Assembly: GCF_025854275.1 (NCBI RefSeq)
Contig: NZ_CP107567.1
Location: 2,728,001 to 2,792,000, forward strand
DNA from: Streptomyces peucetius
GTDB taxonomy: Bacteria; Actinomycetota; Actinomycetes; Streptomycetales; Streptomycetaceae
Reading direction: 5' to 3'
DNA: 64,000 nt
A program made the position numbers and the translations under genes. Every line of letters starts with the position of its first letter. Within the stretch, counting starts at the first letter, position 1. The notes beneath the pieces are model-generated. The model was given only the letters and a program-made list of their open reading frames with translations. It had not been told where the DNA came from and searched no databases. Positions 20,994-38,963 of this stretch are shown here, piece by piece.

Positions 20994-22466
20994 ATGCCGG
21001 AGCCCGCATCGGCCCCACCCACCCCACCGGTCCCGCTGGCCGCACTCCTCGCCGACCAGGAGCTCGGACTGCGCCAGCTCGCGGGCCCGCCCGCCGCCGA
21101 GGGCGCGGTCGTCCACATGGTCCACACCTCGGAGATGGCCGACCCGTATCCCTATCTGCTCGGCGGCGAGCTGCTGCTCAGCGCGGGCGTGCTGCTGAAC
21201 GACGCCGACCGCTACGTCTCCCGCATCGTCCAGGCCGGCGCGGTGGCGCTCGGCTTCGGCGTGACGCCCGTATACGACACGGTTCCCGCGGAGCTGGTCG
21301 CGGCGTGCGAACGGCACGGGCTGGCGCTGCTGGAGGTGCCGCCCTCGACGACCTTCACCGCCGTCGCGCGAGCGGTGTGGCGGCTGATGGCGGAGGCCCG
21401 CCACCGTGAGCTGCGCCGGGTGACCCGGGCCCAGCAGGGCCTGGCCGCGGCGGCGGCCCGCCCGGACCCGGTACCGGCGGTGCTGCACCAGCTCGCGGTA
21501 CGGCTCGAGGGCTGGGCGGCACTGCTCGGCCCGGACGGGACGCAGCTCTACGCGGCGGGCCGCGAACCTGCGGCCGACGTGGTGACGGACCTGACCCGGC
21601 TGACGCGCGTGGTCAGCCCAGGCACGTCGCCGCGCCCCGCCCCGGCCTCCGCGACCGCAACGAACCCCGGCGCATCGCCGCGGCCCACCCCGGCCTCCGC
21701 GACGGACCGCGGGGCCGCGGGGCACCTCGCCGCGTACGCCCTCGGCGGCAGCCAGGGCCTCGTCCTCGGGCTCGCCACGCCCGCCCGCGAACCCGGCGAC
21801 CACACGGTCGCCGGCGTCGCCGTGGTACTCCTCTCCCTGCTCACCGCCGCACAGCAGGGCACGGACGCCTCCGGCCGGAGCGCGGCGCTGGTGCGGCTGC
21901 TCCTCGGCGCGGCACCCGGCGAGACGGCCCCGCTGCTGGGGCCGGGCCCATGGACCGTGGTCCACGCCCGCGGCGACCGCTCGCCCTTCGCGGCGGCCGC
22001 GCTCGGCGCGGCCCTCGGCAGCGCGCTCGTCGACCCGGACGCGGACGGCTCCGTACGGGTCCTCCTGCCGGCCGACCGGGAGGCGACGGCCCAGCCCGGC
22101 TGGACGCTCGGCGTCAGCGCCCCCGCCGGCCCCGACGAGCTCGCCACCGCCGACCTCCAGGCGGCCAGAGCCCTCCGCCACGCGGTCGCCACCCGCAAGG
22201 ACCTCGTCCACCACCGGGCCGCCGACCCCCTGTCCCTGGACGCCGCCCGCCGGCGCCTGGCGCCGCTCGCGGACTCCCCCGCGCTCGTCGAGACACTGCG
22301 TACCTGGCTCTCCCTGCACGGCAGCTGGGACCGCACCGCCAACGCGCTGGACGTCCACCGCAACACCGTCCGCCAGCGCATCGGCCGCTGCGCGGCACTG
22401 CTGGACGCGGACCTGGACGACGTGGACGTCCGGATGGAGCTGTGGTTCGCGCTGCGGCAGGAGTGA
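20994..22466 (+). CDS. PucR-family transcriptional regulator
   Basis: About 490 residues from MPEPASAPPTPP; GGATGGA seven bases before favours this start over the ATG at 20979. Layout: N-terminal PucR domain (LGLRQLAGP, MADPYPYLLGGELLLS, GFGVTPVYDTVPAELV), a central variable region, and a C-terminal HTH_30 domain (LHGSWDRTANALDVHRNTVR). A low-complexity stretch contains the motif SPRPxPASAT twice. It probably controls the divergent symporter/ureohydrolase/TPP operon. The last 33 bases of identity at its 3' end are repeated at 38931-38963, which marks this gene as the insertion point of the following island. Confidence 0.88.
   Translation: MPEPASAPPTPPVPLAALLADQELGLRQLAGPPAAEGAVVHMVHTSEMADPYPYLLGGELLLSAGVLLNDADRYVSRIVQAGAVALGFGVTPVYDTVPAELVAACERHGLALLEVPPSTTFTAVARAVWRLMAEARHRELRRVTRAQQGLAAAAARPDPVPAVLHQLAVRLEGWAALLGPDGTQLYAAGREPAADVVTDLTRLTRVVSPGTSPRPAPASATATNPGASPRPTPASATDRGAAGHLAAYALGGSQGLVLGLATPAREPGDHTVAGVAVVLLSLLTAAQQGTDASGRSAALVRLLLGAAPGETAPLLGPGPWTVVHARGDRSPFAAAALGAALGSALVDPDADGSVRVLLPADREATAQPGWTLGVSAPAGPDELATADLQAARALRHAVATRKDLVHHRAADPLSLDAARRRLAPLADSPALVETLRTWLSLHGSWDRTANALDVHRNTVRQRIGRCAALLDADLDDVDVRMELWFALRQE
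22427..22459. repeat. Left 33-bp direct repeat within the 3' end of pucR (attL-like)
   Basis: Bases 22427-22459 (starting CGTCCGGATGGAGCTGTGG) are identical, by eye, to 38931-38963. Here they encode VRMELWFALR near the PucR C-terminus, followed by QE and a TGA stop. Confidence 0.85.
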
Positions 22467-22713
22467 GGCGGCCCTGCGCCCGGCCCGCCGCGGCTCAGCG
22501 GCACAGGCGGAGGCGAGGGCCGGGGTGTCCCAGCAAAAGGGGCACGCCTCGGTGTTCCGTCCGTCCTCGACCGTGATCGTCTGGAGGACATCGGACGTCG
22601 CGCCTGCGAGGTTCGTCGGTCTACGCCCGGGTCAGCGCGGGGCATTTCACCGTGCGGGCCCACCCGCGCCTTCATCTGGCCCCTGCTGGATCTGGTCGCA
22701 GCACCGTCGGCGG

Positions 22714-23499
22714 CTACGCAATGCCCCCCATCCACATGCGCCGCCCCAGCTCGTCGAGTTCCGTCCTGCGCTCCTCGAATTCGGGAAGGGCCCGCCCGAG
22801 CAGCGCCCAGAAGTCCGGCCCGTGGCCATGGATCCTCACGTGGGCGAGCTCATGGGCGACGACGTAGTCCACCAGGTGCATGGGGAGCTGGAACAGCGGC
22901 CATCCGAGACTCATCCGTCCCTTCTCCCGGCTGTGCGGGCCTGGCCGGTAGCTGCCCCACCGTCCTCCGAGATCGGACACGTCCAGGGCGGGTTCGGACA
23001 CCCCCATGCGAGCCGCCCACGGCTGGAGGCGCCCGCCGGCCCACCGTCGGCCGGCCCGGCAGTACCAGGCGACGAGCGCCGCCCGGCCGAGCGCGGGATC
23101 GGCAGCCTGCGCCGCGCCCAGCACGAGCCGTCCGGCGACCAGCCGCACAGGGGCGTCCTCCGCGCGTTCCTCGTCGACGGTGAGCCGGTACGTGCGTCCG
23201 AGGTATCGGAAGATCTCGCCCTCCACGAGGCGCTTGGGTGGGGTGAGCGGACGGGTCCGTTCGCGGACGGCGAGTTTGTCCGTCACCCACGCCCGGTGCG
23301 CCCGGACGAAGTCCGCCGCGTCGGAGGCGGGGCGCCCCTGAGGTGTGTGCAGCGTGATCTCGGAGTCCAGCTCGACCGTGAGCGCGAACCGCTTGCGCCG
23401 GGAGCTGACACGCACGTCCAGCACCAGACCGTCGACGGCGAGCCGGTCGCCTTCTGTGAGGGCGACCGGCGAAGCGGAGTCGACGGTGGAGGTGGTCAT
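22714..23499 (-). CDS. YgjP/DUF45-type zinc metallopeptidase
   Basis: 261 residues from MTTSTVDSASPVAL. Zinc site HELAH in VAHELAHVRIHGHGPDFW near the C-terminus, with the third ligand likely the downstream His of HGHGPDFW. An N-terminal beta-rich part ends with the typical YLGRTYRLTV segment. This family (also described as WLM/SprT-like or M48-like) is frequently linked to type I restriction systems. It starts five bases after the hsdR stop, so it is part of the same transcript. A role in turnover of the restriction complex or of protein-DNA adducts is speculation. Confidence 0.82.
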   Translation of the reverse strand: MTTSTVDSASPVALTEGDRLAVDGLVLDVRVSSRRKRFALTVELDSEITLHTPQGRPASDAADFVRAHRAWVTDKLAVRERTRPLTPPKRLVEGEIFRYLGRTYRLTVDEERAEDAPVRLVAGRLVLGAAQAADPALGRAALVAWYCRAGRRWAGGRLQPWAARMGVSEPALDVSDLGGRWGSYRPGPHSREKGRMSLGWPLFQLPMHLVDYVVAHELAHVRIHGHGPDFWALLGRALPEFEERRTELDELGRRMWMGGIA

Positions 23500-23504
23500 T
23501 CCGC

Positions 23505-26500
23505 CTATTCTCCCCTCCTCCTCGCCCGGAACGGCCCAGGGTTGGCGTTGGCGTGGGCCGCGAGCCCCTGGGCGAGCGCCCTCAGCGCCCCCCAGTCCGA
23601 ACCGGCGGGCCGGACCCGTCCTTGGAGCAGCACCATCTCGATCCTGCCGGCGAGACGGGTGACGTCCTGCTCCTGGCGCTGGTAGGAGGTTTTCGTCATG
23701 GTCTCGGCCGCCGTGTCGCACACCGCTCCGACGACGGCCCGCAGATCGGCCTCGGTCGTATCCACGCCGGGGTTGTCGACCGTGTCCCGCTCCAGGAGGC
23801 GGTACACGACCTGTTCCAGAGGGGTGAGCCCTGCGAACCTCGGATCCTCCTCGCTCTGGCGGCGCGCTTCCTCGAAGAGCGGACCGAACTCCCGGATCTG
23901 ATCGTCGAAGCGGCCGGGCATCTCCCGAAGGATCTCCTCCAGCCGCTCCGAGAGCCGGGTGTACTTCTCCGGGTCCTCCCGCTTGACTCGCTCCTCCAGG
24001 TGGAAGCGCAGGGCGTGCCCCATCTCGGCGGCGGCCTCGCGGGCGGGCATGGCCCGCACACGCTCGTCGAAGAGGGGCGACGCCAGGGAGACAGGTGCGA
24101 TCACCTGGTCGATCTCCGGGCCCTCCAAGTGCTCGGCGATCAGCGAGCGGACCTTGCGGCCGATCCTGCGCATCGTGAAGCCACCGCCCGCCGTGTCCCG
24201 GTGGAGGGTGCGGATGCGCTTCTGCAACAGACCCCAGCGACGGGCCTCGGCCACATAGTCCAGGCCGCGCTCGTGCGGAAGCACCCGCTCCAGCGTGTTC
24301 AGGAACTCGTGCAGCACGCTGTCGAAGCCCGCGCGCACGGTCTCGTCGTCGAAGGCCAGGGCCGCGTTGCGTACGGCGGCGAAGTCGACAAGGTCCGCAT
24401 CGATAACGCCCGCGTGGTCGCGAAGATACCGGCGTACGTCGTCCGCCGCCGGTTCCAGGCTGTCGACCTCCGCGGACATGCTGAGCATGGTGTCGTCGAC
24501 GTCGGCCTTCTTGTACTCGGCGAGTGCATCGTCCAGGTGCTGGAAGACACCGTAGTAGTCGACGACGTAGCCGATCTCCTTGCCGCGCATCGGACGGTTC
24601 ACCCGGGCGACGGCCTGGAGCAGTTCCGCGTCCCGGATCGGACGGTCCAGGTAGAGCGACTGCTCGCGCGGGGCGTCGAAGCCGGTGAGCAGCATGGATT
24701 TGACGATGAGGAAGGCGATCGGGCTGTCGGGGTGCACGGGATCAGGCTCGGCGCCGGGCCGGTCCTGCTGGTCCACGCTCTCCGAGGACCAGGGATTGCC
24801 CCCGGCGGCCGCCGGAGCCTTGGGCTCGTTCACCGGAGTGTGGAAGGGTGTGGTGAGGACCCAGTCGGGCTCCGGAGGGAACGCCGGGAACGCCTGGTGG
24901 AAGCGCTCGATGTACGCGGCCTGCCTCACCGGGTCCGTCCAGTGGAGCCACTCGCGCCGCTTGCGCTCCGTGCCGGGCGAGACGACCGGCACGAAGTCGA
25001 TCCGGCGCAGCAGCGAACGGAACCGGTGCGCCTGGAAGAGGTACCGGGTCCGCCGGTCCATGTCCTCGACCGGTGTCCCGCTGACCGACTCCGGACGGAA
25101 CTCCGCCAACTCCGCCAGCAGCGCGTCGCGCGCGGCCCGCAGCGCGTGGTGGTACTCGACCGCCGCCTTCCGGCTGACGGCCGCGACCTGGGCCTTGAAG
25201 CCGCCGCTGGCCAGCACGGTGGTCACCCAGTGCTCCAGCATGTCCTCGGCCTTGGCGCGGATCATCGGCTTGGACTCGGCGACGTCCCGCTCGCTGGGCC
25301 ACCGGTTCAGGAGTGTGCGCTTCTCCTCGTCGCTGCGGTCGCGGATGAGGTCCTCGAAGCGACGGTCCAGGCCCTCCTGGTCGAGCACCGCCCCTTCGCC
25401 GGTGCGGCCCTCGTAGCGGATGCGGACGACCACCCCGTCGTTCTCGGCGTCCGCCATCCGGTACTCGTCCAGGAACTTCTGACCGGTACCGCCATGGAAG
25501 ATCCGGCGGGTGTCCTCGGCCTTCCCGGTCATGATCGGCGTGCCGGTGAAACCGATCTTCGCCGCGTTGGGGATCGCCTTGCGCAGGGCCGCATGCAGCA
25601 GGCTGGTGTGCGAGCGGTGCGCCTCGTCGACGAGGACGAGGATGTCGGGCGAGGTGTTGCACTCGGGGAAGTTCGGCACCGGCGGCAGCTTCGCCGCGCG
25701 CCGCTCCCGCCGGTTCTTCTCGGCCTCCTCGTACTCGGCGGCGAAGTCCCTCTCGTCGCCGTCCTCCTCCGGCTCGGCGGCGAAGGTGAAGCCACCGGCC
25801 CCGTACTTCTGAATCATCGCGAACACCACCCGCCTGCCGCCGTCCCGCAGCAGGCCTTCCATCTGGGCGGCGTTCTTCGCGGTCTCCACCTCGGACTCGC
25901 TCAAACGCAGGGTCTCCGCGAGCTGCCGCTGCAGCTGGGTCCGGTCGGTGACCACGACCACCATGAACTCGCTGAGCCGGTGGTGCAGATGCATCCGGCG
26001 GACGAGGAACGTCATGGTGAGGCTCTTGCCGGAGCCCTGGGTGTGCCAGATGACACCTCCGCGCTCGTCGTCGAGGACCGACCCGCCACGTGCCTTGCCG
26101 GTGAGCAGCTTGCGGACCGCCTTCTCGGCGGCCCGGTACTGCTGGTGCCGAGCGACGGCCTTGACCGTCCGCGCGCCGCCCGCCTCGGTCGGCACGGTCA
26201 TCGGCACGATGTAGTGCCGGACGACTCTGAGAAGCGCGTCCGGGCGCAGCGCGACACCGACCAGCTTGTGGCGCTCGTTGAGTTTGCTGGTCCCGTCGGG
26301 GAGTTCGGCGGCAAGCGTGGCCGGGTCCTCGGGTTCGACGCTGCGCCAGGGGTGGAAGTGGTCCGGGGTGGAGGTGATCGTGCCGAGGTGAGCGGTCTCC
26401 GCGGTGGCGGCGACGAGGAGCTGCACGGTGCGGAAGAGCTCCGGGACGCCGGCGGGCAGCGGCGACCCGTCGCCGTCCCGTTCACCGTCGTCGGGGAGGG

Positions 26501-27065
26501 GAGAGCCGGCGTAGTGCCGCAGGTCGACGACGGCGTCGTGGATCGGGTCGACGAGGTCGGGCCGCTTGCACTCGAAGGCGACGAGCGGAATACCGTTCAC
26601 GAAGAGGACGATGTCGAGGACCGACTCCTCACCGGACCGGTTCCGGACGCGGAGCTGGTCGACGACGGTGAACTCGTTGCGGTCGGCGCGCTCCTCGTGC
26701 CACTCGACGTACTGCACGGTGGCGGAGGGGCCGCCGTGCGCGGCGGACGGGCCGGGTAGCAGCAGGCCGCTGAGGAGGAGGTCGGTAGAGGCGAGGTTGG
26801 CCTTCTCGACGCCCTCGCCGAGGGAGACGGACGCCAGGGCGCTGACCGCGCGTCTGACGTCGTCCTTCTCGTCCATCCACGGCAGGCCGTCGGCGGCGCG
26901 GAGGTTGATCCGTCGCAGGGCCCTGGTGAGCTGATCGGCAAGGAACGGGGCGTCGGCGTCGAGCGTGCCGATGTCCGTGCCGGGGACGTGCTTCCAGCCC
27001 ATGGCCTTGAGCTGCGCGACGGTCGGCCGCTCCACCTCGTCCCGCTCGGACTGCATCGTCGCCAT
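23505..27065 (-). CDS. hsdR: Type I restriction enzyme, R subunit
   Basis: 1186 residues. The N-terminal endonuclease domain shows the PD-(D/E)XK end LVAFECKRPDLVDP near residue 165. The SF2 translocase has Walker A HTQGSGKSLTMTF and DEAH box LVDEAHRSHTS, followed by GFTGTPI; the later helicase motif region includes QAVARVNRPMRGK. A helical C-terminal part binds the methylase core. The enzyme cuts unmodified DNA far from the recognition site after ATP-driven translocation. Starts MATMQSERDEVERP (or three codons later). It is separated from hsdM/hsdS by about 7 kb that includes AIPR, XRE/DUF397 and two IS elements. Confidence 0.93.
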   Translation of the reverse strand: MATMQSERDEVERPTVAQLKAMGWKHVPGTDIGTLDADAPFLADQLTRALRRINLRAADGLPWMDEKDDVRRAVSALASVSLGEGVEKANLASTDLLLSGLLLPGPSAAHGGPSATVQYVEWHEERADRNEFTVVDQLRVRNRSGEESVLDIVLFVNGIPLVAFECKRPDLVDPIHDAVVDLRHYAGSPLPDDGERDGDGSPLPAGVPELFRTVQLLVAATAETAHLGTITSTPDHFHPWRSVEPEDPATLAAELPDGTSKLNERHKLVGVALRPDALLRVVRHYIVPMTVPTEAGGARTVKAVARHQQYRAAEKAVRKLLTGKARGGSVLDDERGGVIWHTQGSGKSLTMTFLVRRMHLHHRLSEFMVVVVTDRTQLQRQLAETLRLSESEVETAKNAAQMEGLLRDGGRRVVFAMIQKYGAGGFTFAAEPEEDGDERDFAAEYEEAEKNRRERRAAKLPPVPNFPECNTSPDILVLVDEAHRSHTSLLHAALRKAIPNAAKIGFTGTPIMTGKAEDTRRIFHGGTGQKFLDEYRMADAENDGVVVRIRYEGRTGEGAVLDQEGLDRRFEDLIRDRSDEEKRTLLNRWPSERDVAESKPMIRAKAEDMLEHWVTTVLASGGFKAQVAAVSRKAAVEYHHALRAARDALLAELAEFRPESVSGTPVEDMDRRTRYLFQAHRFRSLLRRIDFVPVVSPGTERKRREWLHWTDPVRQAAYIERFHQAFPAFPPEPDWVLTTPFHTPVNEPKAPAAAGGNPWSSESVDQQDRPGAEPDPVHPDSPIAFLIVKSMLLTGFDAPREQSLYLDRPIRDAELLQAVARVNRPMRGKEIGYVVDYYGVFQHLDDALAEYKKADVDDTMLSMSAEVDSLEPAADDVRRYLRDHAGVIDADLVDFAAVRNAALAFDDETVRAGFDSVLHEFLNTLERVLPHERGLDYVAEARRWGLLQKRIRTLHRDTAGGGFTMRRIGRKVRSLIAEHLEGPEIDQVIAPVSLASPLFDERVRAMPAREAAAEMGHALRFHLEERVKREDPEKYTRLSERLEEILREMPGRFDDQIREFGPLFEEARRQSEEDPRFAGLTPLEQVVYRLLERDTVDNPGVDTTEADLRAVVGAVCDTAAETMTKTSYQRQEQDVTRLAGRIEMVLLQGRVRPAGSDWGALRALAQGLAAHANANPGPFRARRRGE

Positions 27066-27165
27066 GTCCCCACGCCCCTCGCCCGCTCACCGCACCCGTG
27101 CAGGTGATCCATTCTGCGTGATGGGCCGGGAACGGGCGAGAGTTCAAGCCGGTTGCCTGCTGGGG

Positions 27166-27480
27166 CTATTGGGGGTGACCGGTGCCTGCGGGGGCGGGCT
27201 TCAGCCGCGCGCCCCTGCTTCGCGCGATGCGGTGCACCTCGCGCAGGGACTCCGCGAGGCGGGCGACGACGTATCGGAGCTGCTCGGGCGTCGCGGAGGG
27301 GTCGCGCAGCAGGTCCTCGACGTGGCCGAGAAGGTCGGTGGCCATGCCGAGCTGCACGCTCTCGATGTTGTCGGCGACGCGGGAGACGTAGCCCTCGCCG
27401 TCTGTGACGAGAAAGCAGGGCTTGCCCTCGGGTCCGCTCCAGGGGAGCAGACGGGTGGCTTCCGTCGTGTGCGGGTTCAT
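27166..27480 (-). CDS. Conserved small Streptomyces protein of unknown function
   Basis: 104 residues, MNPHTTEATRLLPWSGPEGKP, with a Leu-rich helical C-terminal half. Homologues typically sit next to XRE/DUF397 pairs in streptomycetes. Its ATG overlaps the stop of the preceding gene (ATGA), so both are co-translated. Part of a related gene survives as a fragment at 39583-39687 in this window. Function unknown. Confidence 0.7.
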   Translation of the reverse strand: MNPHTTEATRLLPWSGPEGKPCFLVTDGEGYVSRVADNIESVQLGMATDLLGHVEDLLRDPSATPEQLRYVVARLAESLREVHRIARSRGARLKPAPAGTGHPQ

Positions 27481-27806: not shown

Positions 27807-27921
27807 GTCTTCGTCTCCGTGCGTTGAGGGCCAGGCCCCTGGTCCGTTCGCGTCGGTCGCAGGGGTCTCGCGTGCTCGGCCCACCGGGTGTCCCCCAGGG
27901 GCTTCGCTCTGTAGTGATTCC

Positions 27922-27934: not shown

Positions 27935-27999
27935 ACCGGCATGGCTACCCTGAACAGGGGGTTCGAGGTGACAGAGCGTTTGTCGCAAAGGGGTTGACG

Positions 28000-28794
28000 A
28001 TGAGCAACGTCTACGGGGAGTGGCTGAAGGCGCAACGGGAGACCGCCGGCCTCACCCAGCAGGAGCTGGCCGACGTGGCGATCATGACGCGCTCCCACAT
28101 CGCCCACATCGAGGCGGGCCGCCGGATTCCGTCACAGGAGGACGCGCGGCGGCTAGACAGGGCGCTGAGCACGGGCGATGTGCTGCAGAGCTTCCTGCCG
28201 AAGCAGGACGTGGCGGTCGCGGACTACTTCGAGTCGGCGCTGGCACTCGAACAACAGGCGACGGTGATCCGCGAGTTCGCGTTGTCGTTCGTTCCGGGCA
28301 TCCTCCAGACGGAGAGGTACGCGCGTGCGGTTCTAAGCACGTCGTACCCTCCTGTGGGTGAAGCGGAATGTGACAGGCTCGTCGTCACACGCCTCCAGCG
28401 CGCGAAAGTGCTGGTGGACCCCGTGGCCCCCGTGGTGTGGGCGCTGATCGACGAGGCGGTGCTACGGCGGGTCGTAGGCAGCAGGGAGATCATGGCGGAG
28501 CAGATCACGCACATGGTCGGCCTGGTGGAGTCGAGGCGCGTACGGGTACACGTGCTGCCGTTCGGCGTCGGCGCCTACCAACTGCTCCAGGGCATGCTGA
28601 GCCTGATGTGGTTCGAGGACCAGCCACCTCTCGCATACTCGGAAGGGAACAGCGTGGGCACCGTCCATGACTCCCCCGTACTGGTCACCCGACTCCAAGG
28701 TGCCTACGATCTCGCACTGAGCGACGCGCTTCCGCTACGGGAATCTCTCGCCCTACTGAGGGCAACGGCAAAGGATTATGAAGATCGTGACTAA
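28000..28794 (+). CDS. XRE-family regulator with DUF5753 (Scr1-type)
   Basis: 264 residues; the ATG at 28000 has AAAGGGG eight bases upstream. The HTH_31 domain is at about 5-65 (LKAQRETAGLTQQELADVA, SHIAHIEAGRR). DUF5753 occupies the rest (LALEQQATVIREF, VPGILQTERYARAVL, and the C-terminal SLMWFEDQPPLAYSEG). These proteins always pair with a DUF397 protein, here overlapping by 17 bases. Such pairs regulate development or behave like toxin-antitoxin-type modules in Streptomyces (e.g. Scr1/Scr2, WhiJ-like). Confidence 0.9.
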   Translation: MSNVYGEWLKAQRETAGLTQQELADVAIMTRSHIAHIEAGRRIPSQEDARRLDRALSTGDVLQSFLPKQDVAVADYFESALALEQQATVIREFALSFVPGILQTERYARAVLSTSYPPVGEAECDRLVVTRLQRAKVLVDPVAPVVWALIDEAVLRRVVGSREIMAEQITHMVGLVESRRVRVHVLPFGVGAYQLLQGMLSLMWFEDQPPLAYSEGNSVGTVHDSPVLVTRLQGAYDLALSDALPLRESLALLRATAKDYEDRD

Positions 28795-29002
28795 CCACAG
28801 CATCCCTGACAGTTCTGCCCTCCAAGGCTGGCGGAAGTCGTCATACAGCGGTCCGGAGGGCGGTAGCTGCGTCGAGGTCTTGGACGGCTACCCATTTGGG
28901 ATCCCCGTCCGCGACTCGAAGACCCCCTACACCGAAGCCTTGATATTCTCGAAGGCCAGCTGGACAGCATTTATCGCCGCTATGCGGCCTGCAGGCACCT
29001 AA
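28778..29002 (+). CDS. DUF397-domain protein (partner of XRE regulator)
   Basis: 74 residues with the family core LQGWRKSSYSGPEGGSCVEV, VRDSKTP and SWTAFIAAMR. The start ATG at 28778 lies inside the XRE gene; a GTG at 28787 is an alternative. The TAA stop (29000-29002) straddles the end of an IS element. Removing the IS and one TA copy gives TAG at the same place, so the protein itself was not truncated. Confidence 0.87.
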   Translation: MKIVTNHSIPDSSALQGWRKSSYSGPEGGSCVEVLDGYPFGIPVRDSKTPYTEALIFSKASWTAFIAAMRPAGT

Positions 29003-29872
29003 GCGTTGTCCCGTAAATGGCTTCGGGCATGCCTGCTGACCTGGCTTTTTTGCTTCGTCATCCGGCGAGGGTGAGGTTGTGCAGGCGGGCGATGCCGAGC
29101 ATGGCGTGGTGGACGCCCTCGCCCTTGAGACGGCAGTCGCGGAGGATCTTCCAGGTCTTCATACGGGCGAAGGCATGCTCGACGCGGGCGCGGACCTTGC
29201 GGTGCGAGCGATTGTGTTCCTCCTTCCAGGCCGGCAGTTCCGCCTGGCCGCGTTCGCGGCGATGCGGGATGACCAGGCCGGTACCCCGGTAGCCGCCGTC
29301 GGCGATCACCGTCGTGCGGCCGACGGCGGCCTTCGCTCCCGACAGCTCCCATGCCTTGCAGTCGTTGCGGTTGCCCGGCAGCGGCCGGCCGACCGCGACG
29401 ACCAGCCGCGTGTCGGCGTCGATGACCACCTGGTGATTGGTCGAGTACCGATAGTTCTTCGACTGCTCGGCGACCTGATGGTCGCGGGTGGGGACCAAGG
29501 TGCCGTCCACGATCAGCACGGTGTCCTTGCGGAACCGTTTGCGAGGCTGCAGGGCCAGCGCCGGGCCAAGGTGGTCGACGATCCTGTCGGCCGCGGACTT
29601 CGACACCCCAAACAGCGGCGCCAGTTGGCGCAGTGTCAGGTTCGTCCGCCAGTACGCGGCGACCAGCAGGACCCGGTCCTCCAGCGGCAGGCTCCACGGC
29701 CGGCCCTTGCGTACTGGATCCGCACCCTCACGCCGCAACGCGGTGATCAGCTTGCCGAACTGACGCGAGCTCAGCCCGGTGAACGGGGCTATCCAAGACG
29801 GCTCCGACGCCGTGATGACACCAGCCACGACAAGATCATCTCACCCGTGACCAGCAGTTACGGGACAACGCT
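29002..29872 (-). mobile_element. IS5-like insertion sequence 1
   Basis: 871 bp with 15-bp perfect terminal inverted repeats, AGCGTTGTCCCGTAA at 29002-29016 and its complement at 29858-29872. Flanked on both sides by TA; the reconstructed empty site reads CCTAGG, i.e. a CTAG-type target. One complete transposase gene inside. Confidence 0.85.
29058..29828 (-). CDS. IS5-family transposase (DDE)
   Basis: 256 residues with an N-terminal HTH (LTLRQLAPLFGVSKSAADRI) and DDE catalytic residues in IVDGTLVPT (D), IADGGYRGTG (D) and ARVEHAFARMKTW (E). Complete, single frame, so the element could be active. It lies within IS 29002-29872. Confidence 0.9.
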   Translation of the reverse strand: MAGVITASEPSWIAPFTGLSSRQFGKLITALRREGADPVRKGRPWSLPLEDRVLLVAAYWRTNLTLRQLAPLFGVSKSAADRIVDHLGPALALQPRKRFRKDTVLIVDGTLVPTRDHQVAEQSKNYRYSTNHQVVIDADTRLVVAVGRPLPGNRNDCKAWELSGAKAAVGRTTVIADGGYRGTGLVIPHRRERGQAELPAWKEEHNRSHRKVRARVEHAFARMKTWKILRDCRLKGEGVHHAMLGIARLHNLTLAG

Positions 29873-29894
29873 TAGGCTCACAATCTCACCTAAC

Positions 29895-30791
29895 TGAACG
29901 CTTCTCATCCTGAGCTCCAGGCGATCTCGATGGCGTGAACGGCGGCGACCGTGCGGCCGATGCGGTTGGTGCTGCAGCGGGCTTTGCGGAGGATCCGCCA
30001 TTGCTTGAGGCGCGCAAAGGCACGTTCGCCCGGCGCCCGCAGCCGGGCGTGGTCCCGGTTGAACTGGGCGTACTTCTCGGGAAGGTCTCGGCCGTAGTAG
30101 GGGGTGCGGACGGTGGCTCCGGCTCCGCGGTAGGCCCGGTCGGCAAGGACGAGGAGCTGACGGGACAGACAGGCTTGGATCACACCGTGTGCGCGGGCTG
30201 CGGTCAGGTCGTGCGTGCGGCCGGGCAACGCTCGCGAGAACCACAGCGGTGTCCCGTCCGGCGCGGCCACGACCTGCACGTTCATCCCGTGACGGCGGTG
30301 CTTCATCGAGTAGTACGGCTCGTCCGCCGCGATGCGGTCGGTGGCGATCAGGGTGCCGTCGAGGATGACGAACCCCTCCGGCGGCAACTCGCGCAGGGCC
30401 TCGTGCAGGCTCGGGGCGCGCTCGGCGAGGATGTCGACCGTTTCGCTCACGTAGCGGCCGGCGGTCGCGGTGGAGACGCCGAACCCGGCTGCGACCTGGG
30501 CCAGGGTCTCGTTCTTGCGCAGGTGCACCAGGACAAGCAGGGCCTGCCGGAAGCAGCCCAGCCTGCGCCAGCGGGAGTTCAGCTCACACCTTCGGGCGTA
30601 GATGAGCCAGGAAACGTGCTCCACGACCTCGTGCGGGACGTCGAGCATGGCACGATGCGGGACCAACAGGGCTCCTGTGTCGAGACGTTGGCGAGTGAGA
30701 TCACCAGCCGAAACGACCAGGAGCCCTGCCGCGTTACGGCCCCCGACCGCCAGCCGTCATCACCCGCGAACCACAGGATGAGAAGCGTTCA
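29895..30791 (-). mobile_element. IS5-like insertion sequence 2
   Basis: 897 bp with 18-bp perfect terminal inverted repeats (TGAACGCTTCTCATCCTG at 29895-29912 and its complement at 30774-30791). Only 22 bp separate it from IS 1. No convincing target duplication was seen. Its right end is fused into the 3' end of the AIPR gene. Confidence 0.85.
29905..30666 (-). CDS. IS5-family transposase (DDE_Tnp_4 type)
   Basis: 253 residues: N-terminal HTH (ETLAQVAAGFGVSTATAGRYV), then catalytic Asp in VILDGTLIATDR, Asp in VLADRAYRGAG and Glu in APGERAFARLKQWRIL. Complete. Different subgroup from the transposase at 29058-29828, so these are two independent insertions. Confidence 0.9.
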   Translation of the reverse strand: MVPHRAMLDVPHEVVEHVSWLIYARRCELNSRWRRLGCFRQALLVLVHLRKNETLAQVAAGFGVSTATAGRYVSETVDILAERAPSLHEALRELPPEGFVILDGTLIATDRIAADEPYYSMKHRRHGMNVQVVAAPDGTPLWFSRALPGRTHDLTAARAHGVIQACLSRQLLVLADRAYRGAGATVRTPYYGRDLPEKYAQFNRDHARLRAPGERAFARLKQWRILRKARCSTNRIGRTVAAVHAIEIAWSSG

Positions 30792-32845
30792 CTCTCTGGT
30801 TCGTTCCTAATTGAGTCGGCAATATCAACCAGAGATCCCCGATCCGGAACAAACCATCTGCGCGTTCCTTGGACCGCCTTAGGAACGTTCTTACCTGCTA
30901 GTTCAAACATGACCTGCACAAGGCGACTTGGCGAATATCTGCCGCCATCCCACTCCCAGAGCAGTGGATTTGCTTTATCATCCACCCAGGTCGCCCGCGA
31001 TCTACGGGGATCTTCGGACACCCAAGCAGATAGAGCCCTCCTTTCCGGCTTAGTATTAGGCCGGAATTCAAGATGCACCCCTTCCTCAATCGCACCAGCA
31101 TCAACGATCACGGTGACTGCGTTCGCTTGCCGGGCTCGGCGTTCTCGCTCCTCCGCCTTATAGTCAGGAGCGAGCTCGGGTGTCGGCCGTCCGGAGATCC
31201 AACCTTGCTTGACAGATTCAACAATTGCCACATATCTGCGCGCGGTCCGGAAAATACTCCATACCTGCAAAGTCTCAGCTGCACCGGAATCAATAGCCTC
31301 CATCACCCAGCGAAGGATCTCGTCCACCTGTGCAGAAACACTACCAAGAAGAACTCCCCATTCACCATCTGGAACGCTAGCCCATTCAGGGTTCTTCTGG
31401 AAAAAGAGATGCGAAATAATGTTCCGACCTTGATCGGCCAGAGATGCCGCTTTCCCTTCCCTGTCGGATTGAGTATCCTGAAGAAATGTTCCCACTTCTC
31501 GAACTACTTGAACCGCACGCCAAGTCTTACGGGCGTCCGGGTGGCGAAAAATCTCAAAGTAAGTATCGTCACTCCAAATGCGCCGCTCCTCTGAGTTAGA
31601 GCGAAACGACATCTCAGAGTTCGAGTGGGAGCACGCCAGTGCAACCGCTGCCTCAAGGATCCCGCACCCCTGCGACGCATCCGGAACTGACTCGCCACGC
31701 TTGTTCGCATACTTCAGATCCAGCACCACGTCGAATTCGTAGCGCAACCTAGCCTGAATCTTGTCAAGGGCTCGGAAGTCCTGTTGAGCTACACCATTCT
31801 GAGTGTTCGTAGCAACTGTCACTCTGCGATCAAAGTTTTGCGGTGTCCCCTGAAGCGGAATAACCCTCACTGAAATGCGAGCCTTAGCCACGGAGGTGGG
31901 GTTACGTTCATACGCCTCATGGATTGATGCAACAGTCTGAGCGCCGTTTACAACACTCGCACCAAGAAGCTCCAAGTCGCCCCGGAGGCCGGCTTCCATC
32001 CGATCACAAAGGATCGTAATCCCGTTATGGAAATACCAGAATTTTTCCGGCTCAGAAAGCAAGGTGTCCACAATCCCAGAGTTCACCTTGGTTAGACCAA
32101 GAGGGTGGCGAATATTTCTCCCAAAGAGACGATGCCTCTCCCCAGAATACCAATCCGCAATTTGATCGGCAGAGATATTTCCGAAGTAAGCAAGGTAGGG
32201 CTCCTCAAGGAATCTCAGGTCCGTCATTTTAGCCCTGAGGTTAACCCTTGGATCATGAATACCTGCACGGATCGCAGAAATGAAATCCGAAAGCAGGAGC
32301 GGCTCGACCCGCATCACTTCTGGATCAAATTCATCGCGCAGCTCCGTCAAGCCGATTTGCACGTTTGGGGAAATGGGTTGGTCGCCTGCAAGCGCGGGAA
32401 CCAAGACAATCTTGACCCGTGGATTGTTCAGCGCAGAATCAAGATCCGGAACGAGTGGGTCAATTCTTTGATTAAAGCGATTGTACTCTCCCCTGACGAG
32501 CTTTCGCAGCCCGTCTTCTAGCGCCCTTAGGGCATTCCCGTCAAAGGTTGCATTTCCCTCCTTGCTCCACTTTGCTTGAACGATCCAAACTTGAGGAACT
32601 TCACTATCGGCATCGACGGCAATCGCATCAATACCCCAATCGTCAAAACTGTCAATTACACACTTCGCACTTTGCTCTGGACTCATTCCTGTAAGAACAT
32701 GCACAGAAAGAGCCGCCAATGCGCGGCTGAGGAATGAGGAGCGCTGAATATGCTTCGGTCGATCGGCGAGGTCAGTCAAATCGATGAAGGGCGGGAACTG
32801 GGCGTCAAGTTCCGATTCAAGCTGTCGGACGTGAAGGTCTTTCAT
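30734..32845 (-). CDS. AIPR (abortive infection phage resistance) family protein, 3' end disrupted by an IS
   Basis: 703 codons from an ATG with GGAGGG upstream; about 684 are native and the last 18-19 are read from the terminal repeat of IS 2. N-terminal part: GIDAIAVD followed by VWIVQAKWS, the Asp and xAK pattern of a PD-(D/E)XK/Mrr-like nuclease. Middle: AIPR core with KFWYFHNGITILCD, VVNGAQTVASI and VTVATNTQNGV. AIPR proteins protect against phage by abortive infection. Located 27 bp after hsdS in the same direction. GC is about 50% in sampled lines against roughly 70% or more around. A near-native length suggests it may still work. Confidence 0.83.
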   Translation of the reverse strand: MKDLHVRQLESELDAQFPPFIDLTDLADRPKHIQRSSFLSRALAALSVHVLTGMSPEQSAKCVIDSFDDWGIDAIAVDADSEVPQVWIVQAKWSKEGNATFDGNALRALEDGLRKLVRGEYNRFNQRIDPLVPDLDSALNNPRVKIVLVPALAGDQPISPNVQIGLTELRDEFDPEVMRVEPLLLSDFISAIRAGIHDPRVNLRAKMTDLRFLEEPYLAYFGNISADQIADWYSGERHRLFGRNIRHPLGLTKVNSGIVDTLLSEPEKFWYFHNGITILCDRMEAGLRGDLELLGASVVNGAQTVASIHEAYERNPTSVAKARISVRVIPLQGTPQNFDRRVTVATNTQNGVAQQDFRALDKIQARLRYEFDVVLDLKYANKRGESVPDASQGCGILEAAVALACSHSNSEMSFRSNSEERRIWSDDTYFEIFRHPDARKTWRAVQVVREVGTFLQDTQSDREGKAASLADQGRNIISHLFFQKNPEWASVPDGEWGVLLGSVSAQVDEILRWVMEAIDSGAAETLQVWSIFRTARRYVAIVESVKQGWISGRPTPELAPDYKAEERERRARQANAVTVIVDAGAIEEGVHLEFRPNTKPERRALSAWVSEDPRRSRATWVDDKANPLLWEWDGGRYSPSRLVQVMFELAGKNVPKAVQGTRRWFVPDRGSLVDIADSIRNEPESERFSSCGSRVMTAGGRGP

Positions 32846-32872
32846 GCACTTACCCTCCTGATTTTCTAGAAA

Positions 32873-34102
32873 TCACGGCATCGCTGGAGTGCCGCACACG
32901 GCTCCAGATAGAAGATTGCCGATCGCACCGATAGTAAGCCCTCTAAGCTTACTCAGCTCTGACACTTCGACATCAATCAGCCGATCACACGAGTGCAGCA
33001 AATCGATCAACTGCTTCTGTTCGCTAAGGTTGGACGGGAAATCGATCTCCAACTCTCGAAGCTTCGAGGGGTTGACGTTGACCTGCTGGACGGCGACAGT
33101 CGAAATGGCCCTGACTCTTTGACGGATCACGGGATGCATGAGCCACTCGACAAGATACTCCGCAGAAAGTTGCGATGCATCTGGGTTAATTCTTACAAGA
33201 TAGGACGCGAAGGAAGCTCTTGGCAGCTCCTCTTGCCACATTGCCGACTTTCCAATGTGGTCAATACTGTTGGTCCGGTTGAACAACACGTCGCCGAACT
33301 TAAGTTCAAGTTTGGTAGGCACAGGTATGGGGCTGTACCTCAGGTCTGACAACTCAAGCCGCCCACCTTCGAGATTGTTCATCCGAAGAACGGGAATCCC
33401 TCGCACATCACCATCCAGAGCCTCGGAAACGCCGTACTCTGCCAAAGGAACCACTTCTTTGAGTGGCACCCGAACCCACCCTTTCGTGCGTTCTCCTCGC
33501 TGCAAAGGGAACATGGCTGACAGCAGCGCCCCCTGACGCACACCACGAAGCTTCGCGACCGTAGCTTGAAGGGCACGCTCCTGCGCCGCCACCGCGTCGA
33601 TCACCTCGATGATCCGCCGCTGCTCAGACAAAGGAATCAGAGGAAAAAGCAGGGACCCGAACCGGTTTCCACCGAGGTGCGAGATGCTCGTCTTTTCCGC
33701 GATGCTGGCGAAAACCCCTTGCGCCCGCCATCGCACGAACACTGCTTGCGCATACTTCGGAAGAACCTCACTCCCCGGGCGGAACCTGATGAGCGTGTTC
33801 TGAAAACAGAACGCCCCCGGCTCGCCCGTATAGATGGCGCTCCTTCCCACCATCCGAAGGTTCTCTTGGCCTTCGTTGAGAAGAATGTCCCCCGAACGTA
33901 GCCCGTATACCTCGCGCTCCCCCGATGAAAAGCCCATCGTCTTGACGTCGGACAGGTCGATCCGTCCCTCGTAGACGTTCGCGACTCTCAGATAAGGGTG
34001 TTGCCCCGCCGCCTCTCGGCTGCTCGGCGAGAGCTGCTTGCCCATGCGGACCTCGCCGACCTCCCGTACGGGAACCCACCGGATCTCGGCGTCAGTCGAC
34101 AT
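32873..34102 (-). CDS. hsdS: Type I restriction system specificity subunit
   Basis: 409 residues with two target-recognition halves, each ending in a conserved helical spacer ([17 protein letters not shown] and [29 protein letters not shown]). The first half starts [16 protein letters not shown], the second [15 protein letters not shown]. It defines the bipartite DNA sequence methylated by HsdM and cut via HsdR. It overlaps hsdM by 11 bases. GC is lower than in hsdM, as expected for a fast-shuffling S gene. Confidence 0.9.
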
Positions 34103-36695
34103 AGCCCAGCTCCTTCAGAAACCCGTCCAGCGTCGCCGCCGCTCGCTCCCGCTCCGCGCGGATCTCCGCCAGCGAGACCGCGTACTTCTCCGTCCACACC
34201 CCGTACGCGTCGACCAACTCCCGCCGACGCCGCACCACATGGCCCTCCAGTTTCCCCGCCAGGTCGTCCCGCAGCAGATCGAGCACCACCCGGCGCTCTC
34301 CCTCCGGGTCCTTCGCATACCGCTTCTGCGCCGCCTTCAGCCTCGGCGGGTCCTCCGCCAGCTTCGCTGGGTCCGGCCAGGGGAACCAGAACTCCGCCTC
34401 CAGCTTCTTGATCCGCGCCGCCGCCTTCGTGCGCTCCCGCTTCACACTCGCCAACTCCGCCAGCTGCTCCACGCTCAGTTCGACCTGTTCCCGTGTGACA
34501 GCGTCTTCGTCACCCTCGGTCTCGCCGTCCTCCCCCGGCTCAGAGGGCTCCGCGTTGAGCTCCTTCCAGCGCGTGTCCAGCTCCGTCTTACGTGCGTCCG
34601 CCTCCGCCAACTCCGTCAGGAACTCGGGAACGATCGCCGCGACCACCTTGTGGTCGTACGCCTGACGGCGTTCCGCCGCCGTGCGCTTACGCACCTTCCG
34701 CGTCTTCGGGTCCTGTTCCGGCGCGAGCAGCGTCTCGACGTTCTCGACCCAGCCGTCCAGCACCCCGGCGAAGCCGTTCTCGGACAGGGCCAGCAGGTCG
34801 TACTTGGCCTCGTACCACCAGCCGGCCACCGCGCCCGCGAGCGCGTACCGGTCGAGGAGCCCGATCCCACCGAGCCGCTTCACGAACGACTCGATCAGCG
34901 AACCCCGCACCGCCATCAGCGCCGCCTTGCGCTCCGAGGCCGTCAGGTCCGCCAGGCGCTCGTCCGTGGCGGCCACCGCCTCCAAGTGACGGGTCTCCTC
35001 CTCCCACCACTTGGCGAAGACCCTCCGTAGCTCCTCCTCACGGGGCCGCGCAAGTTCCGCCAGCCGTGCCGCGTCCGGGCGCTCGCCCTCCGGGAGGAAG
35101 TCCACATACGCCGGGTCCACCGGGTCCCGCTCGACGAACAGGTCCTCCAGGCGCACCCCGTACGCGTCGAGCAGCTCCTGCTTCGCCTGGATCTCCGCGC
35201 GCGGCATCCCGCCCGTCAGATGCGCCCGCACGTCCTGCGGCTCCGGTGGAGGCGTGTTGTCCACGTAGCGGCGGATGTTGAGGTTGTAGTCGTTCTCCCG
35301 CAGCTCCTCGCGGTCGACCCACCGGGCGAAGCCGGGCACGTCGTCCTGCGCGCGGAAGGTGGTGACGATCTTCTCCGCGTGTTCGGGAAGCAGCACGTTC
35401 TGCGCTCGCTCCGCGTGGTACTCGCGGTCGGCGTTGACGAAGAGGACCTTGCCCTCCCGGTCACGGTGCTTCTTGCCGGGCGGGCGGAGCACCAGGATGC
35501 ACGCGGGGATGCCCGTGCCGTAGAAGAGGTTCGGGGCGAGACCGATGACGGCCTCGATCGCGTCCTTCTCGATGAGCTCGGCGCGGATGTCACGCTCGCC
35601 GCCGCCCCGGAAGAGCACGCCGTGCGGCATGACCGTGATGACCATGCCGCCGTGCCCCTCCTGCTTGGTCATCCAGAGCATGTGCTGGAGGAACATCAGG
35701 TCGGCCTTGCCGCGCTCGCTCGTCGCGCCGTACTTCGCCCGGTCCGCCTTGTGCGGGTAGTTCTCGTACGCGTAGTCCATGGAGAACGGCGGGTTGCTCA
35801 GTACCCCGTCGAACCGGTCCGCGTCGGACCTCGGGACGTGCGCCGGTTCCGACAGGGTATCGCCGGTGCGCAGGTCGAAGCGGGTGCTGACACCGTGGAG
35901 CACCATGTTCATCGTGGACATGATCCAGGAGCCGCTGTTGGCGTCCTGGCCCGCGAAGAACATGTTCTCGGTGTCCCCGCCGTGCTCCTCCACGTACTCC
36001 TTGGCGTGGATGAGCATGCCGCCCGAGCCGACGCAGGGGTCGTAGATGCGGGTGCCGTCCTTGGGGTCGAGCAGCTCGACCATCATGCGGACCACTGCAC
36101 GCGGGGTGTAGAACTCACCGCCCTTGCGGCCGGCGCTGTCGGCGAACTCCTTGATCAGATACTCGTACGCGGCGCCGATCAGGTCCGGGAACTCGAAGTC
36201 GGCCGTCCGCAGCCGCACCCGCCCGAAGTGGGCAATCAGCAGCTTCAGCCGCTGGTCGGCGAGCTTCGCCGCACCGGCCGTGGCGCCCGAGCCGCCGATC
36301 CGGTTGAAGTCGAGCTGGTCGAAGAGGCCTTGCAGCTTGGCGTTCTGTCCTTCGAGGGCCTGGAGCGCGGGGCGCAAGCGCTCCTCGTTGACGTTCTGGG
36401 TGGCGGAGGAGATCCGCGCCCAGCGCGCTTCCTCCGGGACGAAGAGGACTCCCTTGTCGCTGTAGGGGGTCGGGCTCTCCAGCCACCCTTCCAACTGCTC
36501 ACCGGTCAGGCCGAGGGCCTTCTCGGCGTGCTCCCTGATCCGCTCCCGCGCCGCCTCGAACTCGTCGTTGGCGCGCTTCAGGAACAGCAGGCCGAAGATG
36601 TAGTCCTTGTACTCGGAGGCGTCCATCGTGCCCCGGAGGATGTCCGCGGCAGCGAACAGATGCCGTTCCAGCTGCGCGAGCGTGAGCTTGGCCAC
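34092..36695 (-). CDS. hsdM: Type I restriction system N6-adenine methyltransferase subunit, long C-terminal extension
   Basis: 867 residues from a GTG start. N-terminal HsdM_N helical domain ([19 protein letters not shown]), then the methylase with SAM motif [10 protein letters not shown] and catalytic NPPFSMDY. The core ends near residue 480; a further 380 residues of charged, coiled-coil-rich sequence ([20 protein letters not shown]) follow. Classical HsdM proteins are about 500-550 residues. This extended form is known in some type I systems. Overlaps hsdS. Confidence 0.92.
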
Positions 36696-36788
36696 GTCAC
36701 CGTCTTCCCTACGACCCGATACGACCAGGGAACCCTACGGCGAGACGGGGCACAGGTCCTAACCGCGAGCGTGAATGGCCACTTCGCG

Positions 36789-37448
36789 TCAGTACCCGGT
36801 GATCCTGAGGCCCTTCTCGACGAATTCGAAGACGTCCGTGTACGGGTCGCGCTGGTCCTTCGCCACATGGGCGGGATGCTGGGCGTTGATCTTCTGCGCC
36901 CACTTCTTCGCCTGGGCGAAACTGCCCTCGGGGAGTTCGTCCGGCCGCATGTGCTTGAGCTGCTCAGGGCTGCCGGTGAAGGGAAGCTGCCGCACCGCCT
37001 CACCGCAGACGCCGCCGAACTGGCCGTTGACCGGCTTGTGGTGGAGCAGCCGCCAGAGCTCGAAACACGGGTGCGAGAAGGCGACCTCCACCCCCGCCTC
37101 CTTCGCCCGCTTCAGGGCGTCCGGAATCTGCAGGTGCTGGTCCCGGTCGAAGAGGCACCACACCTCGGGCCACAGCTTCTCGTCCAGCTTTGCCTTCTTC
37201 GCCGCCCGCGTCTCCTCGCGCATCAGCCGCGCCGCGGCCTCGACCAGCGTGATCGGCTTGCGCTGCGATCCTGGCGCGGACGCGTTCGCGATGCGGACCT
37301 CGACACCGGTCTCCGCGGGCTTGCCGCGCACGATCTCGATGTACTGCGGCTCGGTCACCCGGCCCTCGGTGAAGACGTGGACGACCTTGTAACGCCGCTG
37401 CCCCTTCTTCGCGGGCCCCAGCGCGTCCTTCCCCCTCGTGCGCCCCAT
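36789..37448 (-). CDS. rloB: RloB-family protein, TOPRIM-like partner of RloA
   Basis: 219 residues from MGRTRGKDALGPAKKG. It shows the TOPRIM-like pattern FTEGRVTEPQYIE (Glu 28) and, later, CLFDRDQH (DxD), followed by FSHPCFELWRLLHH, the usual RloB signature. The start overlaps the rloA stop (TGATG). RloA/RloB were first noted as restriction-linked ORFs and are related to AbiL-type two-gene phage defence, in which an AAA ATPase pairs with a nuclease-like partner. The nuclease role is inferred from family and motifs. Confidence 0.82.
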   Translation of the reverse strand: MGRTRGKDALGPAKKGQRRYKVVHVFTEGRVTEPQYIEIVRGKPAETGVEVRIANASAPGSQRKPITLVEAAARLMREETRAAKKAKLDEKLWPEVWCLFDRDQHLQIPDALKRAKEAGVEVAFSHPCFELWRLLHHKPVNGQFGGVCGEAVRQLPFTGSPEQLKHMRPDELPEGSFAQAKKWAQKINAQHPAHVAKDQRDPYTDVFEFVEKGLRITGY

Positions 37449-38707
37449 CAGCTCCCGCTCCGCTCCGCCTCGTGCTCCCGCTCCCCCTCGGTCGCCGCCA
37501 GCAGCCGCCGGGCGATCTGGCCCTCCAGCAGTGCGGGGACGGCGCCGAAGGCGCCGGCCAGGTAGGCCTTCATCAGGTCCTCGTCCTCCCCCGGGGAGGC
37601 GGCGGTCAGCGGAAAGAGCTCGGTGGCCCCGGCCTCGTCCTTCTCGGTGAGCCACACCTGGGCCGGCTCCAGCAGACGGCCGCCGCTCGGTGTGGTGAGG
37701 ACGGAGGGGTCGTGCGAGGTGAAGACGAGCTGTGCCCCCCTGGCGTTGGCCTCGGGGTCGTGGAAGAGCCGGATGACCTCGGCCGCGAAGCGCGGGTGGA
37801 GGCTGGCGTCCAGCTCGTCGACGAGTAGGACCGCGCCCTCGTCCAGTGCCAGGAGCAGGGGGCCGAGCAGGGCGAACCAGGAGCGGGTGCCGTAGGACTC
37901 GTACCGCCATTCGAGCGGCGTGTCGCCCGTGCCGGACCGGTGGGTGAGCCGGACCTCCGGTCTGCCGTGTGCCCCCTTGACGGTTTCCGCGCCGGTGATG
38001 CCGAGGTCCGCGACGCGCAGCAGCTCGTTGATGCGCCGGGCGCGCCTGCCCGCCAGCTCGCGGGTGGTGAACGCCTCCCGCTCCGGCCGCTCCTCCTCGG
38101 GGTTGATCAGCCAGAGGTTGCGGCGGAACCAGTGGAAGAGAGGGGTGAGCTGGGGGTGGTTGTCGGTGCCCGCCGTGGAGAGGACCAGGGCGTTCGGCCG
38201 GGTGCGCCGTTCCAGACCTGAGCGGTCCTTGACCCGGGCGCCCGGCCAGTCGTAGACCTTGGCGCGCGAGGCGTCCCGGTCGAGCCACACCTGGCGGTGG
38301 CCGCGCGGATAGCTGTGCAGCCACTCGGCCTCGACCCGCTCGGGGCCGAGCTCGAAGCCGTAGGTCCAGCGCACGCCGTCGAGGACCAGGTCCACCTCGT
38401 AGAAACTCGGCTCCTCACCGCCCTTGCCGTCCAGTGCGAAAGGGATGCGGTCGGTGCCGTCGTACGAGGCCCAGCGTGCGTAGGAGTCCTGCACCGCACG
38501 GCTCATGTCGGTCATCGCGGCGAGGACGTTGGACTTGCCCGAGGCGTTCGCGCCGAAGATGCCCGCCAAGGGGAGGACGCCGACCGCTCCCCCGGCCAGC
38601 TCGACGCGCCGCGCGGCGGTGCTCGGCTCGTCCCCGGGTACGACGAACGTCAGCTCCTGCTCGTCGCGCAGTGACCGCACGTTGGCCGTGCGGAATCTCA
38701 GCAGCAT
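37448..38707 (-). CDS. rloA: AAA-family ATPase RloA (OLD/AAA15-like)
   Basis: 419 residues from MLLRFRTANVRSLRDEQELTF with GAGAGGGG upstream. Walker A GANASGKSN at 52-60; Walker B LLVDELDASLHP near residue 295; FTSHDPSVL as the switch/D-loop region. No C-terminal TOPRIM domain of its own; that function probably sits in RloB, one base overlapping downstream. First gene of the minus-strand defence operon and closest to the right direct repeat. Probable phage sensor or SMC-like clamp of the pair. Confidence 0.85.
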   Translation of the reverse strand: MLLRFRTANVRSLRDEQELTFVVPGDEPSTAARRVELAGGAVGVLPLAGIFGANASGKSNVLAAMTDMSRAVQDSYARWASYDGTDRIPFALDGKGGEEPSFYEVDLVLDGVRWTYGFELGPERVEAEWLHSYPRGHRQVWLDRDASRAKVYDWPGARVKDRSGLERRTRPNALVLSTAGTDNHPQLTPLFHWFRRNLWLINPEEERPEREAFTTRELAGRRARRINELLRVADLGITGAETVKGAHGRPEVRLTHRSGTGDTPLEWRYESYGTRSWFALLGPLLLALDEGAVLLVDELDASLHPRFAAEVIRLFHDPEANARGAQLVFTSHDPSVLTTPSGGRLLEPAQVWLTEKDEAGATELFPLTAASPGEDEDLMKAYLAGAFGAVPALLEGQIARRLLAATEGEREHEAERSGS

Positions 38708-38930
38708 GCCGGCCCCTCTCCGGCGGCCAGCCTAGTCGTCACCGGGGACAGCGCCTCGTCACGGGCCCGAACAGGTGGTGCCGTGGCCCTGTCCGGTGTG
38801 ACGGGTCCGCTGTCACATCGGCTGCGCCCGGGCGCGGACCGGTCCGCGTCACCCCGTCGCGCTCGCCGCCGCCCTCCCCTCAACGCGGCCCGAGAAGAGG
38901 CAGCCGCCGAGGAAGGTGCCCTCCAGGGAG
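38708..38930. other. Non-coding stretch upstream of rloA
   Basis: 223 bp between the rloA start and the right direct repeat. No gene, terminator or clear promoter recognised; the rloA promoter must lie here. Together with the repeat and the following 114 bp this forms a gene-free stretch of about 370 bp. Confidence 0.4.
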
Positions 38931-38963
38931 CGTCCGGATGGAGCTGTGGTTCGCGCTGCGGCA
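38931..38963. repeat. Right 33-bp direct repeat (attR-like), orphan copy of the pucR 3' end
   Basis: Identical to 22427-22459. Read in the pucR frame it continues VRMELWFALR, then HG and TGA. Sequence upstream of the repeat has no resemblance to pucR, so only the 3' tip of the gene is duplicated. Confidence 0.85.

Follow-up and report, generated by a model that had tools for sequence, protein, structure and literature searches.

How did a set of restriction and abortive-infection genes come to lie directly behind an intact pucR gene in Streptomyces peucetius, between two exact repeats that both read as the end of that gene? The locus stands in a 64,000-nucleotide stretch of contig NZ_CP107567.1 (positions 2,728,001 to 2,792,000; hereafter the window). 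An earlier sequence-only reading explained it by an element that integrated site-specifically at the 3′ end of pucR, an unrecognised insertion hotspot, and that either depends on a helper or has lost its recombinase. The genes between the repeats are ygjP, hsdR, a helix-turn-helix (HTH)/DUF5753 regulator gene, two IS5-type transposase genes of insertion sequences (ISs), an AIPR gene, hsdS, hsdM, and an AbiLii/AbiLi pair. In this study, we find that the locus is a defence hotspot bounded by core genes, whose insertion scar is unusually easy to read and is not site-specific. We put at roughly 0.7 the probability that the island is cargo at this hotspot that entered by homologous recombination in pucR on its left side and by end-joining on its right, and that it is not an integrase-borne element.

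A right junction between two unrelated genes

The two ends of the island carry an exact 33-bp direct repeat, at 22427-22459 and 38931-38963 (plus strand). The left copy forms the final codons of the resident pucR (20979..22466, plus strand; Pfam PucR, 3.1e-19; HTH_30, 3.3e-20), which is intact, encodes 495 aa, and is the left anchor of the hotspot. Its codons end in ...CTG CGG CAG GAG TGA (PucR ...LRQE and a stop), and those of the right copy end in ...CTG CGG CAC GGA TGA (...LRHG and a stop); compared in register, the copies match at 93% over 42 nt. The position and identity of the repeat, and the description of both copies as a PucR C-terminus followed by a stop, were thus given correctly in the sequence-only reading. 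The right copy is the beginning of a displaced tail of the recipient's pucR (38931-38970 including the stop codon), and its right edge simply marks where the two pucR alleles begin to differ. A chance repeat or an assembly artefact has a negligible probability. In 64 kb of this base composition, the expected number of exact direct repeats 33 bp or longer is only about 3e-9, which rules out a chance repeat; the 33-bp sequence has just two matches in the 8.05-Mb genome, which is a single contig; a weight matrix of pucR tails gave 0 matches when 1.23 Mb of loci were scanned as reversed sequences; and sites without the island exist in relatives (see below).

The left edge of the right copy is a boundary of a different kind. 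Immediately before it, at 38850..38930 on the minus strand, lies a C-terminal fragment of a flavin adenine dinucleotide (FAD)-binding dehydrogenase gene that is cut at the repeat and codes for the last ~23 residues (SLEGTFLGGCLFSGR...) of a 508-aa relative. We searched the 194 bp ahead of the right repeat (38737-38930) against 392 genomes of the genus and obtained partial matches in 383 of them, the window's own counted; among the matches listed, only the last 47-120 bp of the query were covered, the window's own excepted. The matched stretch, about 38850-38930, belongs to FAD-binding dehydrogenase genes at other genomic sites (best rows 92-93% identical, one 100% over 47 bp), and another copy of the gene, at 83%, is present in the same genome. 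The name of the gene is based on plasmid annotations, in which most of 15 plasmid-record rows give FAD-binding dehydrogenase, and on the Pfam FAD_binding_2 match of a full-length relative.

In the eight gene copies printed, similarity to the window reaches within 2 bases of 38930 and the copies then continue with CGGTA (5) or TTGTA (3), whereas the window continues with CGTCC of the pucR tail. At most 2 bp (CG) are common to the two sequences at the join, and the break in pucR lies 40 bp ahead of the end of the stop codon. Since similarity to the dehydrogenase gene ends at 38930 with no more than CG in common, the right copy of the repeat is read as starting at an end-joined breakpoint between unrelated genes. 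The right junction is an illegitimate gene-to-gene join.

A variable interval behind pucR

The 3′ end of pucR was matched in 364 of the 392 genomes, and 100 loci (20-kb stretches) were taken from the matches listed. One of them, L212, was excluded before counting, which left a census of 99 loci. In L212 (end of contig C277, genome G017), two inverted pucR-tail copies stand about 250 bp apart, probably through a fold-back in the assembly. The census is skewed toward pucR tails like that of the window and lies mostly away from short contigs. The loci extend about 18 kb downstream, and only the islands of G075 and G340 were followed beyond, to their right ends.

In seven of the 99 loci (G174, G129, G361, G030, G034, G157, and G273), the site is empty, and pucR is followed by the sequence that stands after the right repeat in the window. 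Similarity starts at the repeat in six of them; in G361 it restarts at 39108 after a gap. Because pucR runs directly into the counterpart of 38964-39570 in these loci, this sequence is native behind pucR and was interrupted by the island, and the existence of empty sites makes the island an insertion. On this point the sequence-only reading stands: the empty sites that it suggested seeking in pucR orthologues exist, the post-repeat sequence does adjoin pucR in relatives, and a second tail is absent from all seven empty loci, where both copies without the defence genes would have spoken against an insertion.

The right flank of the interval consists of conserved acyl-CoA dehydrogenase and acyl-CoA thioesterase genes (41207..43270, plus strand). 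By script, 41 of the 99 loci have the gene order of the window from pucR to this pair, with an interval of 76 to 17,978 bp, and in 46 the dehydrogenase/thioesterase block is inverted, with an interval of 43 to 2,028 bp. The inverted block also takes in phosphatase genes (41195-47081 in the window). The script saw no right flank in the remaining 12 loci; among these, the flank lies about 0.7 kb from pucR in the empty sites L033 and L034 and about 23 kb from it in G075. The downstream side of pucR is a variable hotspot bounded by core genes. The earlier suggestion of a hotspot is therefore borne out by an interval that is highly variable in length and content across the census, and none of the open-access papers listed in our searches reports pucR as an attachment site or a defence hotspot.

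The defence cargo recurs at the hotspot, in census loci and in loci picked for AbiLi. The same module stands in three of the 99 census loci (L036, L060, and L072). A search of the genus with AbiLi matched 57 of the 392 genomes, the window's own counted. Of the 10 best after the window's own, nine show the module behind pucR with its gene order unchanged (G340, G387, G266, G057, G076, G075, G230, G119, and G359), and in the tenth, G379, only the right flank is visible. These loci, and a second set of 21 that again includes G119, were chosen for carrying AbiLi. The module of G387 is 85-89% identical to that of the window and has 21 bp where the two ISs sit. Two more census loci, L208 (G082) and L215 (G025), have a short remnant of the ygjP end about 63 bp past the pucR core, at the same spacing; the rest of the module is missing there, as if it had been lost. 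In another group of species (e.g., G160, G363, and G259), the module or a part of it is located upstream of pucR, beside a thiamine pyrophosphate (TPP)-enzyme gene (L129, L130, L131, L132, L144, and L150; window counterpart, 16669-18351). Locus L142, whose record names the organism as Microtetraspora glauca NRRL B-3735, agrees with G076 in gene order around pucR, and that organism name may be wrong.

Displaced tails, recombinases, and the origin of the island

The weight matrix of pucR tails detected displaced tails in the window and G119 only, and, among the 21 loci picked by AbiLi, in S. roseolilacinus and again in G119 (L143); it detected none in 59 further census loci. The displaced tail of G119 is 57 bp long and has several differences from the resident tail, while that of S. 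roseolilacinus, about 130 bp long, is 83% identical to its resident tail. Measured to the stop codon, the three are 40 (window), 57 (G119), and ~130 bp (S. roseolilacinus) long, and their breakpoints differ. Both sides of a module between pucR and the acyl-CoA dehydrogenase gene are visible in 10 loci (the window, G387, G057, G075, G266, G230, G119, G359, G076, and S. roseolilacinus); by eye, three of these have a displaced tail and seven have none. To judge from these sequences, the 33-bp repeat is not a conserved attachment (att) core.

Cis-mobilisable elements (CIMEs) and prophages in the 3′ ends of protein genes such as fda and icd are bounded by direct repeats and restore the target gene, and their integrase may be missing. 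An origin of this kind would make the repeat of the window attL and attR, with a replacement tail supplied by the element and an integrase that was lost or acts in trans. The clean direct repeat, the intact pucR, the empty sites, and a conserved word common to the three displaced-tail cases (see below) would all fit. The genome also has 14 matches to PF00589 (tyrosine integrase) and one to PF07508 (large serine recombinase), and the former could act in trans. All 15 are outside the 64-kb window, in which neither family has a match, and the main open reading frames (ORFs) of the island gave no integrase or recombinase with Pfam and PHROGs, in agreement with the statement that there is no integrase inside. 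We considered a trans-acting enzyme and rejected it, as nothing found ties any of these matches to the pucR site; a helper-dependent element is not supported.

Twelve other genomes that carry the module or a large cargo were searched, and none has PF00589 or PF07508 within 50 kb of pucR (PF00239 resolvases and other families were not searched there); the nearest match is in G340, on the upstream side. The pucR end had no match in phage records and three partial matches in plasmid records, a degenerate pucR-tail pattern had none in IMG/VR contigs, and the window contains no tRNA gene according to ARAGORN. Since G387 has the module but neither the ISs nor a PF00589 or PF07508 match near pucR, the ISs need not have destroyed an integrase, and the proposed loss of a recombinase upon their arrival is superfluous. 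Site-specific integration also has to account for the torn FAD-dehydrogenase gene at the right edge, for displaced tails in two other species that begin elsewhere and differ from the resident tail, and for the seven module loci without such a tail. Unlike in CIMEs and prophages, there is no common att breakpoint, no integrase-bearing relative was found, and a torn foreign gene forms the boundary. We therefore reject the attachment-site interpretation as the leading one and regard it as improbable.

Another possibility is that at least two events were involved: the module would have been swapped in by ordinary double homologous recombination, and the donor would have had a displaced tail from an earlier event. 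The scar would then be inherited, with the recipient's own tail recombined into it. Displaced tails are not confined to one lineage, the module is widespread at the pucR locus, and the equally spaced ygjP remnants of G082 and G025 indicate a long history of the site. Against such an inheritance, no other genome among the 392 matched either flank over its full length (194 bp on the right, 260 bp on the left), the other matches listed being all partial (two candidates scored per genome). A Pfam scan for a remnant recombinase, in one frame for each of these unique flanks, found nothing; the flanks matched SnoaL_2 and FAD-dehydrogenase genes. We regard this multi-event history as unlikely.

We favour a single entry with one homologous and one end-joined side. 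The incoming DNA would have begun with a pucR 3′ end, continued with the defence module, and ended within an FAD-dehydrogenase gene. On the left side, homologous recombination within pucR would have kept the gene intact and given it a new 3′ end, QE and stop in place of HG and stop. On the right side, where the junction itself is visible, the end of the cargo would have been joined without homology to a break in the recipient's pucR, probably by Ku-dependent end-joining; two Ku genes are present in this genome. The old tail of the recipient's pucR would thereby have been pushed to the far side of the cargo. In other lineages, the module is resident behind pucR and may be swapped through homologous exchange in the core genes on either side, a process that would leave no repeat.

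Several observations weigh against this favoured course. The word CGGATGGA is conserved by eye in the resident and displaced copies of all three displaced-tail cases, and a recombinase could use it. Perfect donor/recipient identity over 33 bp is uncommon, as only 30 of 4851 pairs of tails among the 99 loci have no mismatch; five of the 99 loci have a tail equal to that of the window. The CG at the join is common to the five CGGTA copies only, and the three TTGTA copies share nothing with it. No Ku match was found in the draft genome of G119. When the pucR of the window was compared in blocks with its counterparts in the loci, no near donor that would place the left crossover appeared among the 14 best. 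In S. roseolilacinus, the module is 95.0% identical to that of G387 and the resident pucR 86-92%, so that the transfer there may have been multi-step. In a conjugation test in Escherichia coli, homology-facilitated illegitimate recombination was very rare (PMC3240628), and among the papers listed no Streptomyces-titled report of this process was found. The competent species that the accessible part of the same paper names do not include Streptomyces.

At the S. roseolilacinus locus, a different segment lies between the resident and displaced tails. This cargo adjoining pucR is 97.7% identical to that beside the pucR of G387, and the flanking core DNA is 90.8% identical. The 1.5-kb segment (L138 6117-7618 versus L072 1761-3260), which may have been transferred recently at this site, contains what we take to be VOC-like and WYL-like genes. 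A single G387-like transfer was considered for this locus and is only partly consistent with the values given above for module and pucR.

More generally, the pucR 3′ end in Streptomyces may be a recurrent homology anchor at which defence cargo is taken up without a mobile element, with one homologous and one end-joined side, and displaced tails may record single entries and mimic att sites. This generalisation is tentative, and we hold it at somewhat less than even odds. The case illustrates how a convincing att-like repeat can form with no integrase involved, a concern for methods that call islands from direct repeats. Displaced tails provide breakpoints by which the filling of integrase-less hotspots becomes directly testable.

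The locus has counterparts in other bacteria. The Pseudomonas aeruginosa hotspots cDHS1 and cDHS2 likewise have changing defence content of widely varying size between two conserved genes and are not obviously one kind of mobile element, and exchange through the conserved flanks was suggested for them (PMC10250203). In contrast to those hotspots, the present locus is in another genus, its flanks are pucR and an acyl-CoA dehydrogenase gene, and one entry has left behind a torn copy of a flank gene. The model of Oliveira et al. (2017) also requires no integrase and relies on housekeeping recombination at the flank genes (PMC5635113); it is a double homologous exchange that would leave no displaced tail, whereas one side looks illegitimate here.

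A closer likeness is found in the effector-immunity modules of the type VI secretion system (T6SS) of Vibrio cholerae, for which displacement by homology-facilitated illegitimate recombination was proposed, with a homologous 5′ anchor, a non-homologous 3′ join, and the 3′ end of the old gene behind the new cargo (PMC5361080). The cargo there consists of effectors, while here the anchor is a regulator gene and the cargo comprises restriction and abortive-infection genes. Streptomyces has functional non-homologous end-joining: in Streptomyces ambofaciens, KuA-dependent joins at breaks were accompanied by the integration of DNA between 30 bp and 18.8 kb long (PMC5869714). Those breaks were made in the laboratory and filled with endogenous DNA; the present case is natural, with foreign cargo and a left side that we infer to be homologous.

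Genes of the island

Beginning at the left, the first feature after pucR is a SnoaL_2-like gene scrap, a C-terminal fragment at 22497..22589 on the minus strand (tblastn 68% over 31 aa, E 6.6e-10; the query protein matches PF12680), whose DNA has matches located elsewhere in other genomes. It is followed on the minus strand by the genes for a YgjP-like metallopeptidase (22714..23721; PF01863, 1.9e-44) and the type I restriction subunit HsdR (23505..27065), and on the plus strand by the HTH/DUF5753 regulator gene (27994..28794). Beyond the ISs, the minus strand encodes an AIPR/AbiU-like abortive-infection protein of low G+C content (30734..32845; PF10592, 6.6e-34; AbiU, 2.3e-31), the specificity subunit HsdS (32873..34102), and the methyltransferase HsdM (34092..36695). 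The G+C content drops to 51-57% at 31-34 kb, across AIPR and hsdS. The AbiLi-like AAA ATPase gene (37448..38707, minus strand; PADLOC AbiLi, 2.2e-84; AAA_21) is accompanied by that of its AbiLii-like partner (36789..37448, minus strand), presumably RloB-like, for which the PADLOC AbiLii match covers residues 297-504 of the longer ORF of the frame. The island had been described as consisting wholly of anti-phage genes and ISs; the restriction and abortive-infection genes and the two IS5-type transposases are indeed present, and some genes are neither known defence genes nor ISs. The two ISs, both on the minus strand, are differing IS5-type elements that stand end to end across 28998-30791. The first (28998..29876) has 22-nt inverted ends and a transposase gene at 29058-29828, and the second (29895..30791), with ends TGAACGCTTCTCATCC by eye, has its transposase gene at 29905-30666.

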